Origin: Neptunomonas concharum
GTDB taxonomy: Bacteria; Pseudomonadota; Gammaproteobacteria; Pseudomonadales; Balneatricaceae
Direction of reading: 5' to 3'
Assembly: GCF_008630635.1 (NCBI RefSeq)
Contig: NZ_CP043869.1
Coordinates: 1,054,001-1,118,000 of the forward strand
Length of the DNA stretch: 64,000 nt
Shown here piece after piece: positions 42,026 to 46,561 of the stretch. Position 1 is the stretch's first letter; each line of letters opens with the position of its first letter. Below the pieces are notes generated by a model. The model ran no database searches. It saw only the letters and a list, made by a program, of their open reading frames with translations, and was not told the origin of the DNA. The translations under genes and the position numbers were made by a program.

Positions 42026-42919
42026 ATGAAAAAGTCACTGATCGCTCTGGCTGTTGCTGGTGCTCTGGCTGCTCCAATGGTTGCACAGGCTGACGCTACT
42101 CTGTACGGCTCTCTGCGCATCAAAATTGAAAACACTGAAGGCGCTACAAACGACAACCTAGACGTAAGAGATAACTCTTCACGTATCGGTGTTAAAGGCA
42201 GCTCTGAACTGTTCTCTGGCGCTAAGGCTATCTTCCAGTTCGAACAAGCTGTAAGCACTGAAACTGGTGCTTGGGCTGGCGGACGTCTGGCTAACGTTGG
42301 TATCACTGGTGATTTCGGTACTGCATTGTTCGGCCGTATCTGGACTCCTTACTACTCTTGGACTGGCGCTCAGACTGATATCCTAGACAACAGCACTTCT
42401 GCATCTTCTGTTTACCAAGTTGGTGCTCACCGTGCGTCTAACGTAATCGCTTACGTTTCTCCATCTATGAGCGGCTTCCAGGTTGCTGCTGCTGTACTGC
42501 CTAACGATGGTGGTGCTGCTGACGACGAAACTATCGACGTTTCTCACGTTGCTGCTAAGTACGAAAACGCTGGCCTGAACGTTGGTGTTTCTTACCTAGG
42601 CTTCGAAGCTGCTGACCGTGATGTAATCTCTGTTGGTGCTTCTTACACTATGGATGCTGTATACGTTGCTGCTCGTTACGAGAATGACGATGCTCCAGGT
42701 GCTGACCGTGATGCTTGGGAACTGGCTGGTTCTTACACAATGGGTAACACTAAGCTGTTAGCTAACTACATCGACGACGAGCGTGATGCTGACGATCAGT
42801 GGTCTTTGGAAGTTCAGCAAAAGCTAGGCAAGCAGGCTCGTGTATTCGCTGCATACGTTGATCGTAACGTTGCAGACGGTGGCGAAGGCTTCATGGCTGG
42901 TTACCGCGTAGACTTCTAA
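42026..42919 (+). CDS. Outer-membrane general porin (Gram-negative Porin_4 type)
   Basis: Beta-barrel porin of 297 residues for diffusion of small solutes. Signal peptide MKKSLIALAVAGALAAPMVAQA cleaved before DATLYGSLR (shown as the first 22 residues split by the site), a PEFxxxG-like constriction segment, and a C-terminal phenylalanine (GYRVDF) for BAM recognition. Codon use is strikingly biased (Ala GCT/GCA, Asn AAC, Arg CGT), unlike neighbours, which indicates very high expression. The longer frame from 41999 is not used: AAGGGGAAA precedes the ATG at 42026. Two hairpins follow the stop. Confidence 0.93.
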   Translation: MKKSLIALAVAGALAAPMVAQADATLYGSLRIKIENTEGATNDNLDVRDNSSRIGVKGSSELFSGAKAIFQFEQAVSTETGAWAGGRLANVGITGDFGTALFGRIWTPYYSWTGAQTDILDNSTSASSVYQVGAHRASNVIAYVSPSMSGFQVAAAVLPNDGGAADDETIDVSHVAAKYENAGLNVGVSYLGFEAADRDVISVGASYTMDAVYVAARYENDDAPGADRDAWELAGSYTMGNTKLLANYIDDERDADDQWSLEVQQKLGKQARVFAAYVDRNVADGGEGFMAGYRVDF

Positions 42920-43771: not shown

Positions 43772-44941
43772 ATGACGCTTAACACTATGTGTGAAAGTCC
43801 GGCGAGTATTCAGTTGATCGGCTTTGAGCCTGAGCACATTATTTTGTTCAGGCGCATACTTGCAGGTCATGCACTGCTCGTTAATGAAGGTGTTTCCAAT
43901 GTACAGCCTTTTAAACACTTCGGTGTTTATATTGTCAGGGTTGCCCGCGAGGCAGATATACAACTGATCAAGGCGTTAAGTGATTCTGATGGTTATTTTC
44001 TAGTTATTTCAGTTTATGAAAAAGCCGATCCAACCAGGATCTTGGAATCTTTAAGGGCGGGCGCAGATGATGTTTTCTTTCTAACTTCGCTTTTGGAGGA
44101 GCAAAGTGCATTTGTATCAGCGCTTGAGCTATTGTTAACAAGATGCCGCTTAATATATGAAGGCAAAGTCTATAGAGAAACACTGGAAGCTTCGCTAGAA
44201 GAACTTAAGAATGATCAAGAAGCAGCTTACCAAGTCCAATCTCGCCTGTTACCTCCACAGAAGCAAGTGATCAAGGATGTTGAGTTTACTTATTCGGTTA
44301 CACCGTCACTGATTGTGAGCGGTGATTTTATTGACGTAGTTCCGATCAATGAACAACTGACCCTTTTTTATATTGCAGATGTATCGGGTCACGGTGCGGC
44401 TTCTGCGCTTATAACGATTCTCCTCAAAAATATCACTAGCCGCTTGTTGCGCAATTTCAAACGTTCCTCCAGTTACGACATCCTATCTCCTGTAAGAACG
44501 TTAGAGCGCATTAACAAGGAGGTTAACTCGCTTGCGTTAGATAAGCACCTTACAGCGTTTTGTGGTGTGATTAATCATCAGGCAAACATCCTAAACTACG
44601 CTGTTGCCGGCCATCATCCAATGCCTTTTTATAAATCTGGTGGTGAAGTTACTATTTTACCTGGAAGAGGTATGCCACTTGGGTTATTTGAGGAAGCTAT
44701 TTTTGGTGAAGGTCAACAAGTATTAGATGATGATTTTTCACTCACACTCTGCTCTGATGGTGTTTTAGAATTACTCTCTGGCGGGAGCATAGCAGACAAA
44801 GAGCAACAGCTATTGAACTGGCTTAAAAGCAATCCTCCTTGCCATGAAGCGCTAAAGGCTTATGTATTTTCTGGTTGTGAGTTATCCGGGCTTATACCTG
44901 ATGATGTAACGATCATGTCGTTGATGAGAGTGAACCTATGA
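43772..44941 (+). CDS. SpoIIE/PP2C-type phosphatase with degenerate receiver domain (HsbR-like)
   Basis: Protein of 389 residues: a receiver-like domain (about 11-125) followed by a short helical linker and a SpoIIE serine phosphatase domain (about 175-389) with SGDFIDV, DVSGHGAASAL, and CSDGVLELL. The receiver position that should hold the phospho-aspartate reads GVYIVRVARE, so phosphorylation is doubtful. Related HsbR/RsbU-type proteins switch an anti-sigma antagonist on and off. The next gene encodes exactly such a STAS protein and overlaps it by 4 bases. Likely role: partner switching in stress, motility or biofilm control. Confidence 0.85.
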   Translation: MTLNTMCESPASIQLIGFEPEHIILFRRILAGHALLVNEGVSNVQPFKHFGVYIVRVAREADIQLIKALSDSDGYFLVISVYEKADPTRILESLRAGADDVFFLTSLLEEQSAFVSALELLLTRCRLIYEGKVYRETLEASLEELKNDQEAAYQVQSRLLPPQKQVIKDVEFTYSVTPSLIVSGDFIDVVPINEQLTLFYIADVSGHGAASALITILLKNITSRLLRNFKRSSSYDILSPVRTLERINKEVNSLALDKHLTAFCGVINHQANILNYAVAGHHPMPFYKSGGEVTILPGRGMPLGLFEEAIFGEGQQVLDDDFSLTLCSDGVLELLSGGSIADKEQQLLNWLKSNPPCHEALKAYVFSGCELSGLIPDDVTIMSLMRVNL

Positions 44942-45417
44942 GCTCTGGCTCTATTTATTATGCTGTCTTGGATAAACATTACGTTATTAAATTTGTAGGG
45001 GAAGTTAGGCTTACACTCTGTTCTTCTTTAGACACCTACATTGAGACGCTTTTATCGAAGGGTGATTGCACCTCGGTGCTGATTGACCTGAGTGAGGCGA
45101 GTTACCTCGATAGTACAACTTTGGGCCTCGTTGCAAAATTTGCAGTGAGGGCTAAAGCAGATGGCTTATCAGCTCCTGTCTTAGTATCTACCCATGAAGA
45201 CGTCACCAGAACCCTGCTGAGTATGGGCTTTGATCAAATATTTGTGTTACTAGATGTTTTACCTGAAACGCAGTGTGAGCTGAAGCAAATTCCGCTTGTG
45301 CAGGAGTCCGTTTTGGAGACGCAGAAGCGCATTATTGATGCGCACAAAGTCTTAATGTCACTCAACGATGCAAATCATGAAGCTTTCCAGAGTTTGATCA
45401 AAGTTCTCGAAAAATAG
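44938..45417 (+). CDS. STAS-domain anti-sigma factor antagonist (HsbA-like)
   Basis: Protein of 159 residues. The STAS domain (about 8-108) has VLIDLSEASYLDSTTLGLVA, in which the serine of DST is the expected phospho-switch residue; it would be dephosphorylated by the upstream phosphatase. A C-terminal helical extension (about 115-159) is unusual for short STAS proteins and occurs in HsbA-type partners. ATG overlaps the phosphatase stop (ATGA, 44938-44941). No anti-sigma kinase or sigma factor gene lies in the window. A terminator begins at its stop codon. Confidence 0.85.
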   Translation: MSSGSIYYAVLDKHYVIKFVGEVRLTLCSSLDTYIETLLSKGDCTSVLIDLSEASYLDSTTLGLVAKFAVRAKADGLSAPVLVSTHEDVTRTLLSMGFDQIFVLLDVLPETQCELKQIPLVQESVLETQKRIIDAHKVLMSLNDANHEAFQSLIKVLEK

Positions 45418-45438
45418 GAATTTTTCCTATTTTTTTTT
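45411..45438 (+). terminator. Terminator of the phosphatase-STAS operon
   Basis: AAAATAGGAA (45411-45420) pairs with TTCCTATTTT (45424-45433) around TTT, followed by more T. It starts within the last codons of the STAS gene. Confidence 0.85.
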
Positions 45439-45462
45439 ATAAGAGCCTAGGTAGAATAACAG

Positions 45463-45606
45463 TTGTCCAGTGAAGAGAGCAGGGATGCAATATCTCATAA
45501 GGATTGAGAACTTTGGATGGACCACCTACAGGGATGAGAAGGTGACCTGCATGGATGTGGGATGAAGGGCTCTAAGCATAGGATGTTTTAGAGCCCTTTG
45601 TTTTTT
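45463..45606 (+). ncRNA. Candidate CsrA/RsmA-titrating small RNA (RsmZ/CsrB-like)
   Basis: About 140 bases carrying seven GGA motifs at 45483, 45501, 45515, 45532, 45553, 45560 and 45581. Six read GGATG and three fit the CANGGANG recognition core: CAGGGATG at 45480 and 45529, and CATGGATG at 45550. Several lie in predicted hairpin loops: GAGAGC/GC..TCTC, CTCA/TGAG (45494-45508), CACCT/AGGTG (45523-45544), a short stem around TGGA near 45552, and the terminator loop. The 3' end is a Rho-independent terminator. A TAGAAT at 45452-45457 may be the -10 box, giving a 5' end near 45463. No protein-coding frame is apparent. RsmY/RsmZ/CsrB RNAs work by sequestering CsrA-family proteins; no GacA box was recognised. 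Confidence 0.72.
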
Positions 45607-45607
45607 A
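45565..45607 (+). terminator. Terminator of the candidate small RNA
   Basis: AAGGGCTCTAA (45565-45575) pairs perfectly with TTAGAGCCCTT (45588-45598) around a 12-base loop holding GGATG, followed by TGTTTTTT. It can also help end the converging tal transcript. Confidence 0.88.
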
Positions 45608-46561
45608 TCAGCTTTGGGCCAGTAGCGTCTCTAGTTTCACTTGGTCCTTGGCAAAATTACGAATGCCTTCCGCTAGTTTCTCAGTTGCCATAGCATCTTC
45701 ATTCATCATCCACCTGAAACGTGCTTCGCTCATTTCTATTTTATCTAGCGAGCTGTTAGCTGTATTAACGCTAAGACGCTGAGAAAGAGGTTCCACGGTC
45801 GAGGCTAACTCTGCCATAAGCTGAGGGCTAATGGTCAGACGATCACATCCTGCCAAGGACTGGATTTCGCCGATATTGCGAAAACTAGCGCCCATAACAA
45901 TTGTGTTGTACCCATGATGTTTGTAAAAGTGGTAAATACTACTTACCGATTGTACGCCGGGGTCTTTCTCGTTGGTAAAGTCGTCAGTGGGGGCTTTCGA
46001 TTTATACCAATCCAAAATACGACCAACGAAAGGCGATATCAAATAGACATTGGCTTCGGCGCAGGCAACGGCTTGAGCAAATCCAAAAAGTAACGTCAGA
46101 TTACAGTTTATGCCTTCTTGTTCAAGAACTTTTGCCGCTTGGATACCTTCCCAAGTGGATGCTATTTTTATCAAAATGCGATCATTGCTGATGCCGGCTT
46201 CGTTATACATTTGGATAAGTTGGCGAGCTTGTTGAAGGGTAGCCTGTGTATCGAACGATAATCGGGCATCGACCTCGGTAGAAATTCTGCCAGGAATGAT
46301 TTTTAGAATCTCCAGTCCGATAAGCACGCCAAACTTTTGAGACATTAAGCTTAGTTGCTCATGTTTATCGCTGCTATGTGTTAATGCCCATTGCTTAGCT
46401 TCGTTGAGTAGCGCTACATAGGCGGGCAGCTCTGCTGCCTTCAGAAGCAAGGATGGGTTTGTAGTTGCATCAACCGGTGTAAACTGGCGAATAGCCTCGA
46501 TATCGCCTGTATCAGCGACAACCGTTGTCATAGATTTAAGTTGCTCTAGCTGGCTTTCCAT
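45608..46561 (-). CDS. tal: Transaldolase
   Basis: Pentose-phosphate enzyme of 317 residues (E. coli TalB, 317) moving a dihydroxyacetone unit between sugar phosphates. The Schiff-base lysine is K132 in [25 protein letters not shown] (31-42) and [17 protein letters not shown] are other family signatures. It is transcribed with dusA upstream (14-base gap). The tal-dusA pairing next to the STAS and phosphatase genes matches my recollection of the PA2795-PA2800 region of Pseudomonas aeruginosa. Confidence 0.96.

Follow-up and report, generated by a model that had tools for sequence, protein, structure and literature searches.

The window, a 64,000-nt stretch of a 3.56-Mb genome assembled as a single contig, contains a locus with the gene order porin, mlaA, RssB-like PP2C regulator, RssC-like STAS gene, predicted RNA, tal (convergent), and dus (Table 1). 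The RNA occupies the noncoding stretch that the sequence-only reading had proposed as a CsrA/RsmA-sequestering small RNA. Among the four loci listed for the STAS protein, its nearest named relatives were from Neptunomonas antarctica (70%) and N. qingdaonensis (69%), and the RNA regions of these two species read identical to those of the congeners G006 and G005. The family referred to below (coded f1) is taken to be Nitrincolaceae.

Table 1. Features of the tal locus and of the second GGA-rich stretch (positions in the window unless stated otherwise)
Feature	Position	Strand	Basis or remark
RssB-like PP2C (SpoIIE) regulator gene	43772..44941	+	Pfam PF07228; best NCBIfam RR_RssB_Pseudo, 227.8 bits, under cut-off 700
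RssC-like STAS anti-sigma antagonist gene	44938..45417	+	Pfam PF01740; best NCBIfam RssC, 164.8 bits, under cut-off 250
Palindrome TAGGAATTTTTCCTA, candidate activator site, centre about -42	45415..45429	+	First triplet is the STAS stop codon
Palindrome to -10 spacer	45430..45451	+	22 nt (23 in some relatives)
-10 hexamer TAGAAT	45452..45457	+	Sequence; similar hexamers in relatives
Predicted CsrB/Rsm-type sRNA	45463..45606	+	Start placed by distance from the -10; 3′ end set by the T-run
Long-range stem P1, GTCCA (45465-45469) with TGGAC (45518-45522), around GGA motifs	45465..45522	+	MFE fold
Hairpin H2, CACCT/AGGTG, loop with CAGGGATG	45523..45544	+	Two-sided changes in 5/6 pairs; also by RNAalifold
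Hairpin H3, CCTGC-ATGGAT-GTGGG, GGA loop of six bases	45546..45561	+	Two-sided changes in 4/5 pairs; author-named structure
Rho-independent terminator, GGA in loop	45565..45606	+	Stem about 45565-45598, T-run tail to 45606
tal (transaldolase), convergent	45608..46561	-	Pfam PF00923; ORF end 2 nt from the predicted RNA end
Second GGA-rich noncoding stretch	L065:1545-1700 (genome C1:3117191 onward, outside the window)		

Analysis of the + strand of 45463-45606 showed eight GGA motifs in 144 nt (at 45483, 45501, 45515, 45519, 45532, 45553, 45560, and 45581), one more than the seven counted in the sequence-only reading, whose six GGATG and three CANGGANG motifs were borne out. Five ANGGA motifs were also present. 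When 127,714 frames of 144 nt were scanned over the 64 kb on both strands, only 44 contained at least eight GGA, and all of them fell in one cluster at 45463-45606. The number of GGA motifs is within reach of composition, 708 of 5,000 dinucleotide shuffles having at least eight. The number of GGATG motifs is beyond it, as none of 5,000 such shuffles reached even five, compared to the six observed.

Folded as the sequence-only reading had suggested, the + strand RNA gave an MFE of -46.6 kcal/mol (z = -2.89), and none of 200 shuffles was as low. The reverse strand also folds (z = -3.95), and the z-score therefore cannot tell the strands apart; the + strand is indicated by its GGA motifs, by its promoter elements, and by the way the T-run points. 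Five of the eight GGA motifs were fully unpaired in the MFE fold, and GGA was present in each of the H2, H3, and terminator loops, which agrees with the placement of GGA in hairpin loops proposed earlier. A 5′ stem equivalent to P1 was found in 11 of 13 single-sequence MFE folds read by eye. The -10-like TAGAAT and the Rho-independent terminator named in that reading are likewise present in the sequence. A simple consensus scan of 45200-45750 called neither a two-hexamer sigma-70 promoter nor a terminator, the former because there is no good -35 and the latter because the loop (16 nt by our count) exceeds the 3 to 8 nt allowed.

The only + strand ORFs of at least 20 amino acids that overlap 45430-45610 are a 31-aa GTG ORF inside the RNA and a 31-aa TTG ORF over its 3′ end. 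The first of these would fit a small coding sequence, and a base-pairing sRNA is a related alternative. However, relatives are distinguished by indels in this stretch while the GGA loops and stems persist, and we regard a base-pairing sRNA or a small ORF as extremely unlikely. Promoter and terminator sequence elements were kept among the relatives, and no sizeable ORF was present in the stretch.

Conservation of the structure was measured for helices H2, H3, and the terminator on an alignment (A3) of 21 distinct sequences, which was fitted to the model's structure and therefore favors it. With that limit, 89% of the H2, H3, and terminator cells were able to pair, two-sided change occurred in 15 of the 20 pairs, and the covariation score was 0.428 compared to 0.251 (standard deviation, 0.016) in shuffles and at most 0.162 in slid alignments; for each of these three measures, none of 500 shuffles reached the observed value. 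One of the five measures applied to A3, the number of further pair types, was not above the shuffles (33 versus 32.4, reached in 235 of 500). On an unfitted MAFFT alignment (A1), RNAalifold predicted H2 and the terminator with a total of 19 pairs, nine of them with two-sided change, and recovered neither P1 nor H3; MAFFT misaligned the 5′ half of the full-length RNAs. On A3, RNAalifold again omitted H3. In the fitted alignment, the predicted pattern is one of GGA loops that persist while their stems covary, and the conservation of GGA motifs among relatives anticipated by the sequence-only reading was observed. The H3 sequence of N. qingdaonensis, UUUACAUGGAUGUGAA, is near the CsrA SELEX consensus RUACARGGAUGU given in PMC7652899.

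Comparison with Rfam covariance models, which the sequence-only reading had proposed as a check, went against an assignment to a known family: no Csr/Rsm model matched. There were no gathering hits to the Csr/Rsm models in the window, and Csr/Rsm families were absent among the 11 Rfam matches at E<=10 in 45300-45700. The CsrB model (356 positions) exceeded its cut-off in none of 54 relatives, in a search with stricter filters and 22 candidates scored per genome; the E. coli control, which applies to the CsrB model only, was positive. Membership in Rfam CsrB, CsrC, RsmX, RsmY, or RsmZ was therefore rejected, as there was no covariance-model match at the locus even weakly. Matches to the CsrB model under the threshold were seen at L235 and L237 (G042, from another family) and at L236 (G012), with 55, 52, and 26 bits, respectively.

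The distribution of the RNA was examined next to tal, for which a match was found in 107 of 116 family genomes. In 90 of these, the sequence following the gene was inspected; the 17 left out include most of genus g2 and G004, whose best tal match is a 58% tal paralog. The RNA adjoins tal in 24 of the 90 genomes, representing 5 of 16 genera, and is absent there in 66, so that the element which the sequence-only reading had suggested seeking beside tal in related genomes was found in a minority of them. By genus, it was present in g1 (6/6), g3 (7/7), g8 (5/5), g9 (3/4), and g12 (3/4), and in none of the 64 genomes of the other 11 genera. Nineteen of the 24 were found by script and five by eye (G003, G079, G129, G083, and G134). 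Among the latter, G003, G129, and G083 have deviating palindromes, G079 has just four GGA, and G134 carries the RNA type in repeated copies at tal, with no such palindrome seen. On second reading, the RNA was absent downstream of tal in G018 (g12). In g12 (L251, L253, and L242), tandem copies of the RNA type, each with a terminator-like end, lie downstream of tal.

The stretch starts 45 nt past the STAS stop codon and stops 2 nt short of the tal ORF end, a position that would also suit a role chiefly as a 3′ UTR or attenuator in the STAS operon, or as an RNA antisense to the 3′ end of tal, with the GGA motifs incidental. In this genome, a run of T after the palindrome could end the STAS message. 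However, several observations point away from this reading. First, the STAS gene lies beside tal without the RNA in g7 (8/8) and in g11, where STAS was present in 9 of 11 genomes and the RNA in none. Second, the same RNA type was found away from tal by model R1 in G100, G022, and G032 and twice in G004. Third, a GGA-rich stretch beside a thiD-type gene has this promoter element before it too, as described below. Finally, the relatives compared lack the T-run after the palindrome. Such an origin is therefore very unlikely. The narrower proposal that the palindrome is a mere terminator of the STAS gene was also judged unlikely, since the palindrome recurs upstream of the thiD-type gene and has no T-run in the relatives.

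A palindromic activator-like site, a partner RNA, and the lack of a GacA above the cut-off were all absent from the sequence-only reading. The first emerged when relatives were compared, which gave a palindrome, TAGGA-N5-TCCTA, followed by a 22-nt spacer and a -10, found across genera. With +1 placed at about 45464 from the -10, the palindrome is centred at about -42, where a class II activator would bind. By itself, the exact palindrome occurs at five places in the genome, as does its reversed control, and with two mismatches it is rarer than the control (21 versus 38 on both strands). When a -10 spaced by 22 nt is required, two matches remain compared to none for the control, and both precede GGA-rich stretches; the other three exact palindromes have as neighbors a peptidase/FKBP pair, a DUF898-like gene, and a GGDEF gene, respectively (names assigned by eye). 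This means that the palindrome is informative only together with the spaced -10, as seen in the genome itself (2 versus 0) and in the family (91 versus 42).

Across the 116 family genomes, the spaced pattern was found at 91 sites in 58 genomes, against 42 in the reversed control (our own tallies), so that a part of the 89 distinct sites is due to chance. At least five GGA occurred in the next 150 nt at 66 of the 89 distinct sites and at least six at 56, compared to a background mean of 1.9 per 150 nt and a frequency of 3.4% for random windows with at least six, these being drawn from fetched loci that include the RNAs themselves. The other 23 distinct sites, with fewer than five GGA downstream, may be chance occurrences. 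Some promoters of g8 and g15 were missed by the strict pattern, their spacer being 23 nt. A slightly stricter pattern applied across the order was found in 13 of 18 family genomes and in 4 of 372 others; the five sites outside the family, compared to 12 for the reversed control (our own tally), were followed by zero to four GGA. An Rfam scan of 15 loci detected TPP riboswitches alone, in 4 of the 15, and no match for the RNAs, and a further scan gave one weak unrelated match. The canonical GacA box, TGTAAGN6CTTACA, was rejected as the control site: in a scan of the window allowing up to three mismatches, the nearest matches begin at 42915 and 59857, and there are none upstream near the RNA.

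Other arrangements of the element were also seen. Loci L080 (G131) and L006 (G004) have several palindrome-preceded GGA-rich stretches close together, apparently by local duplication. In genus g3 (L132, L136, L138, L113, L114, and L133), a third class of GGA-bearing RNA has the same promoter element, with the -10 CATACT and a GGGGGCG-type terminator.

The second spaced palindrome of the genome is at C1:3117147. The GGA-rich stretch after it, with 10 GGA in 150 nt, is divergent from a phosphomethylpyrimidine kinase gene (thiD-type, by Pfam) with a TPP riboswitch. Similar stretches, with the 5′ block GTGGATCTCCTGTTCATGGAACGAAT and variants of it, were found in many genera of the family. The thermodynamic z of this second RNA was nil (-0.05). 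The tal-linked RNA and the second RNA probably act as one output. As judged from the comparison of promoters, the predicted tal-linked RNA is one of a family-wide set of putative sponge RNAs that have a promoter element in common, one distinct from the GacA box.

Taken together, a CsrB/Rsm-type CsrA sponge RNA with an activator-dependent promoter is very probably the right explanation of the locus. We read it this way because of the conserved GGA loops with covarying stems, the position at tal in five genera, the presence of csrA, and the second RNA with the same promoter, and by the same comparison the sequestering role proposed by the sequence-only reading gains support. The genome has two csrA genes. 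One, shown to be above the NCBIfam csrA cut-off, is the canonical gene and adjoins tRNA genes (recognized by eye). The gene context of the second copy (Pfam CsrA; L007, genome C1:1236695-1236850, outside the window) looks phage-type by eye. From these sequences, we infer transcription, CsrA binding, titration, and the identity of an activator as follows. Transcription would start from an activator-dependent, sigma-70-type promoter in which the palindrome covers the -35 region, and the same element lies before the other GGA-rich RNA, at the thiD-type gene, which is the more widely conserved of the two. The RNA at 45463-45606 would bind several CsrA dimers through its GGA loops and single-stranded GGATG sites, and the mRNA targets of CsrA would thereby be freed. 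As far as sequence can tell, the RNA is of a known kind, and its input, the predicted promoter and activator site, is the variant.

Csr/Rsm RNAs are commonly located by GacA boxes or Rfam models. Both fail here, and the fixed spacing of palindrome and -10 finds the RNAs (66 of the 89 distinct sites), pointing to at least two RNA types without an Rfam match in the 15 loci scanned. Like RsmX, RsmY, and RsmZ of Pseudomonas, the RNA is short and GGA rich, with ANGGA motifs, a Rho-independent terminator, and CsrA/RsmA encoded in the genome; unlike them, it has no Rfam match, no nearby GacA box, and a palindrome at about -42 instead. The Pseudomonas RsmX, RsmY, and RsmZ loci presumably differ from the tal-linked one. 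The earlier view that this is not a known Pseudomonas Rsm locus holds to that extent, yet the genome is not that of a Pseudomonas, the STAS relatives being Neptunomonas. CsrB and CsrC of enterobacteria (RF00018 and RF00084) share the repeated GGA and the expected titration of CsrA; however, the RNA here is about 144 nt long, compared to 356 positions in the CsrB model. Searches of a collection of open-access papers for Neptunomonas with CsrA and for Marinobacterium with CsrA and small RNA found no paper.

CsrR1 and CsrR2 of Alcanivorax dieselolei are predicted CsrA-related sRNAs that are also from a marine gammaproteobacterium; they are set apart by their description, CsrR1 coming from the hfq leader and CsrR2 lying beside a ferredoxin gene (PMC9788540). 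Sponge RNAs in species without Gac have already been proposed, with RpoN-type sites before some of them in P. syringae (PMC5568370). That study covers other species, and no palindrome of the TAGGA-N5-TCCTA kind is described in the passages compared. According to the same 2017 study, Gac orthologs were present in all species whose RsmA-regulating sRNAs had been validated (PMC5568370), a statement to which a proven case here would be directly relevant.

The UvrY/GacA equivalog model was over its cut-off in none of 35 family genomes (best, 211.8 versus 280 bits), an absence judged by score alone; among 19 relatives from other families, 10 passed it and two more narrowly missed it. The best match of this genome to the GacA model is a LuxR-type response regulator at C1:1767341-1768003, outside the window (169 versus 280 bits). 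Relatives of this regulator were found in 105 of 114 family genomes at E<=1e-30, although matches near that value, as in G098 and G088, look like paralogs. Its identity to GacA proteins of the order was 32 to 34%, compared to 35% to another regulator of its own genome; by bit score, the GacA proteins were ahead (134 to 148 versus 121). In a 21-row tree that included only six other regulators, it joined four GacA proteins (support, 96/93) on a long branch. The helix of its HTH domain reads KTVHAHRANILRKL, compared to KTVNSYRYRIFEKL in a GacA of the order.

A similar pair of predicted GGA-rich RNAs is found in Marinomonas mediterranea, also a marine gammaproteobacterium with CsrA (PMC8523701). 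Its CsrB and CsrC have GacA boxes TGTAAGN6CTTACA and are under PpoS/PpoR, the regulator there being 50.9% identical to GacA and located beside uvrC, whereas the candidate regulator here has the lower identity given above and, in the six loci viewed by eye, other neighboring genes. In E. coli, UvrY leaves a footprint on an 18-nt repeat near -183 of csrB and a second crosslink near the -35 (PMC4682653), and the latter counts against a clean contrast with the palindrome over the -35 region here.

The divergent GacA-like regulator is the likeliest candidate for the proposed activator of both RNAs. We suggest that the family may have kept the Csr sponge system and changed its input, such that a GacA-derived regulator with a new recognition helix would read TAGGA-N5-TCCTA over the -35 region in a class II-like manner (about -42) rather than a far-upstream GacA/UvrY site, and would control a few dedicated sponge RNAs, the tal-linked one among them. 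This LuxR-type response regulator would thus replace canonical GacA on TGTAAGN6CTTACA. We give this full scenario about an even chance. If it holds, the locus would be a testable case of rewiring, in which the expected output, CsrA titration, is unchanged and the activator site is altered.

The sponge may be real and the palindrome read by another LuxR-type or an unrelated activator, an alternative that changes the activator and nothing else in the best explanation and that we hold to be a lesser but substantial possibility. The palindrome is unlike a GacA box, and the matches listed for the genome include at least seven regulators of this receiver-plus-HTH type. The link between regulator and promoter across genomes also has exceptions. 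For instance, eight of the nine genomes without the regulator (G010, G025, G091, G092, G094, G016, G015, and G031) have no pattern site with at least five GGA, yet G084 (71% complete) has a GGA-rich site and no regulator match, and G088 and G098 (87 and 98% complete) have GGA-rich sites and no clear match. Conversely, many regulator-bearing genomes lack a strict promoter match, an extreme example being g2, where the genomes searched have a regulator match and 1 of 15 has a strict promoter match (G128, with four GGA after it). Set against this, the GacA-like regulator is the best GacA-model match of the genome and occurs almost throughout the family; both its HTH helix and the DNA site are unlike those of GacA. 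At one locus (L223, G026:C25), in the sole genome where this was seen, the gene of the GacA-like regulator is convergent with a GGA-rich stretch that has the palindrome before it, the two being about 500 bp apart.
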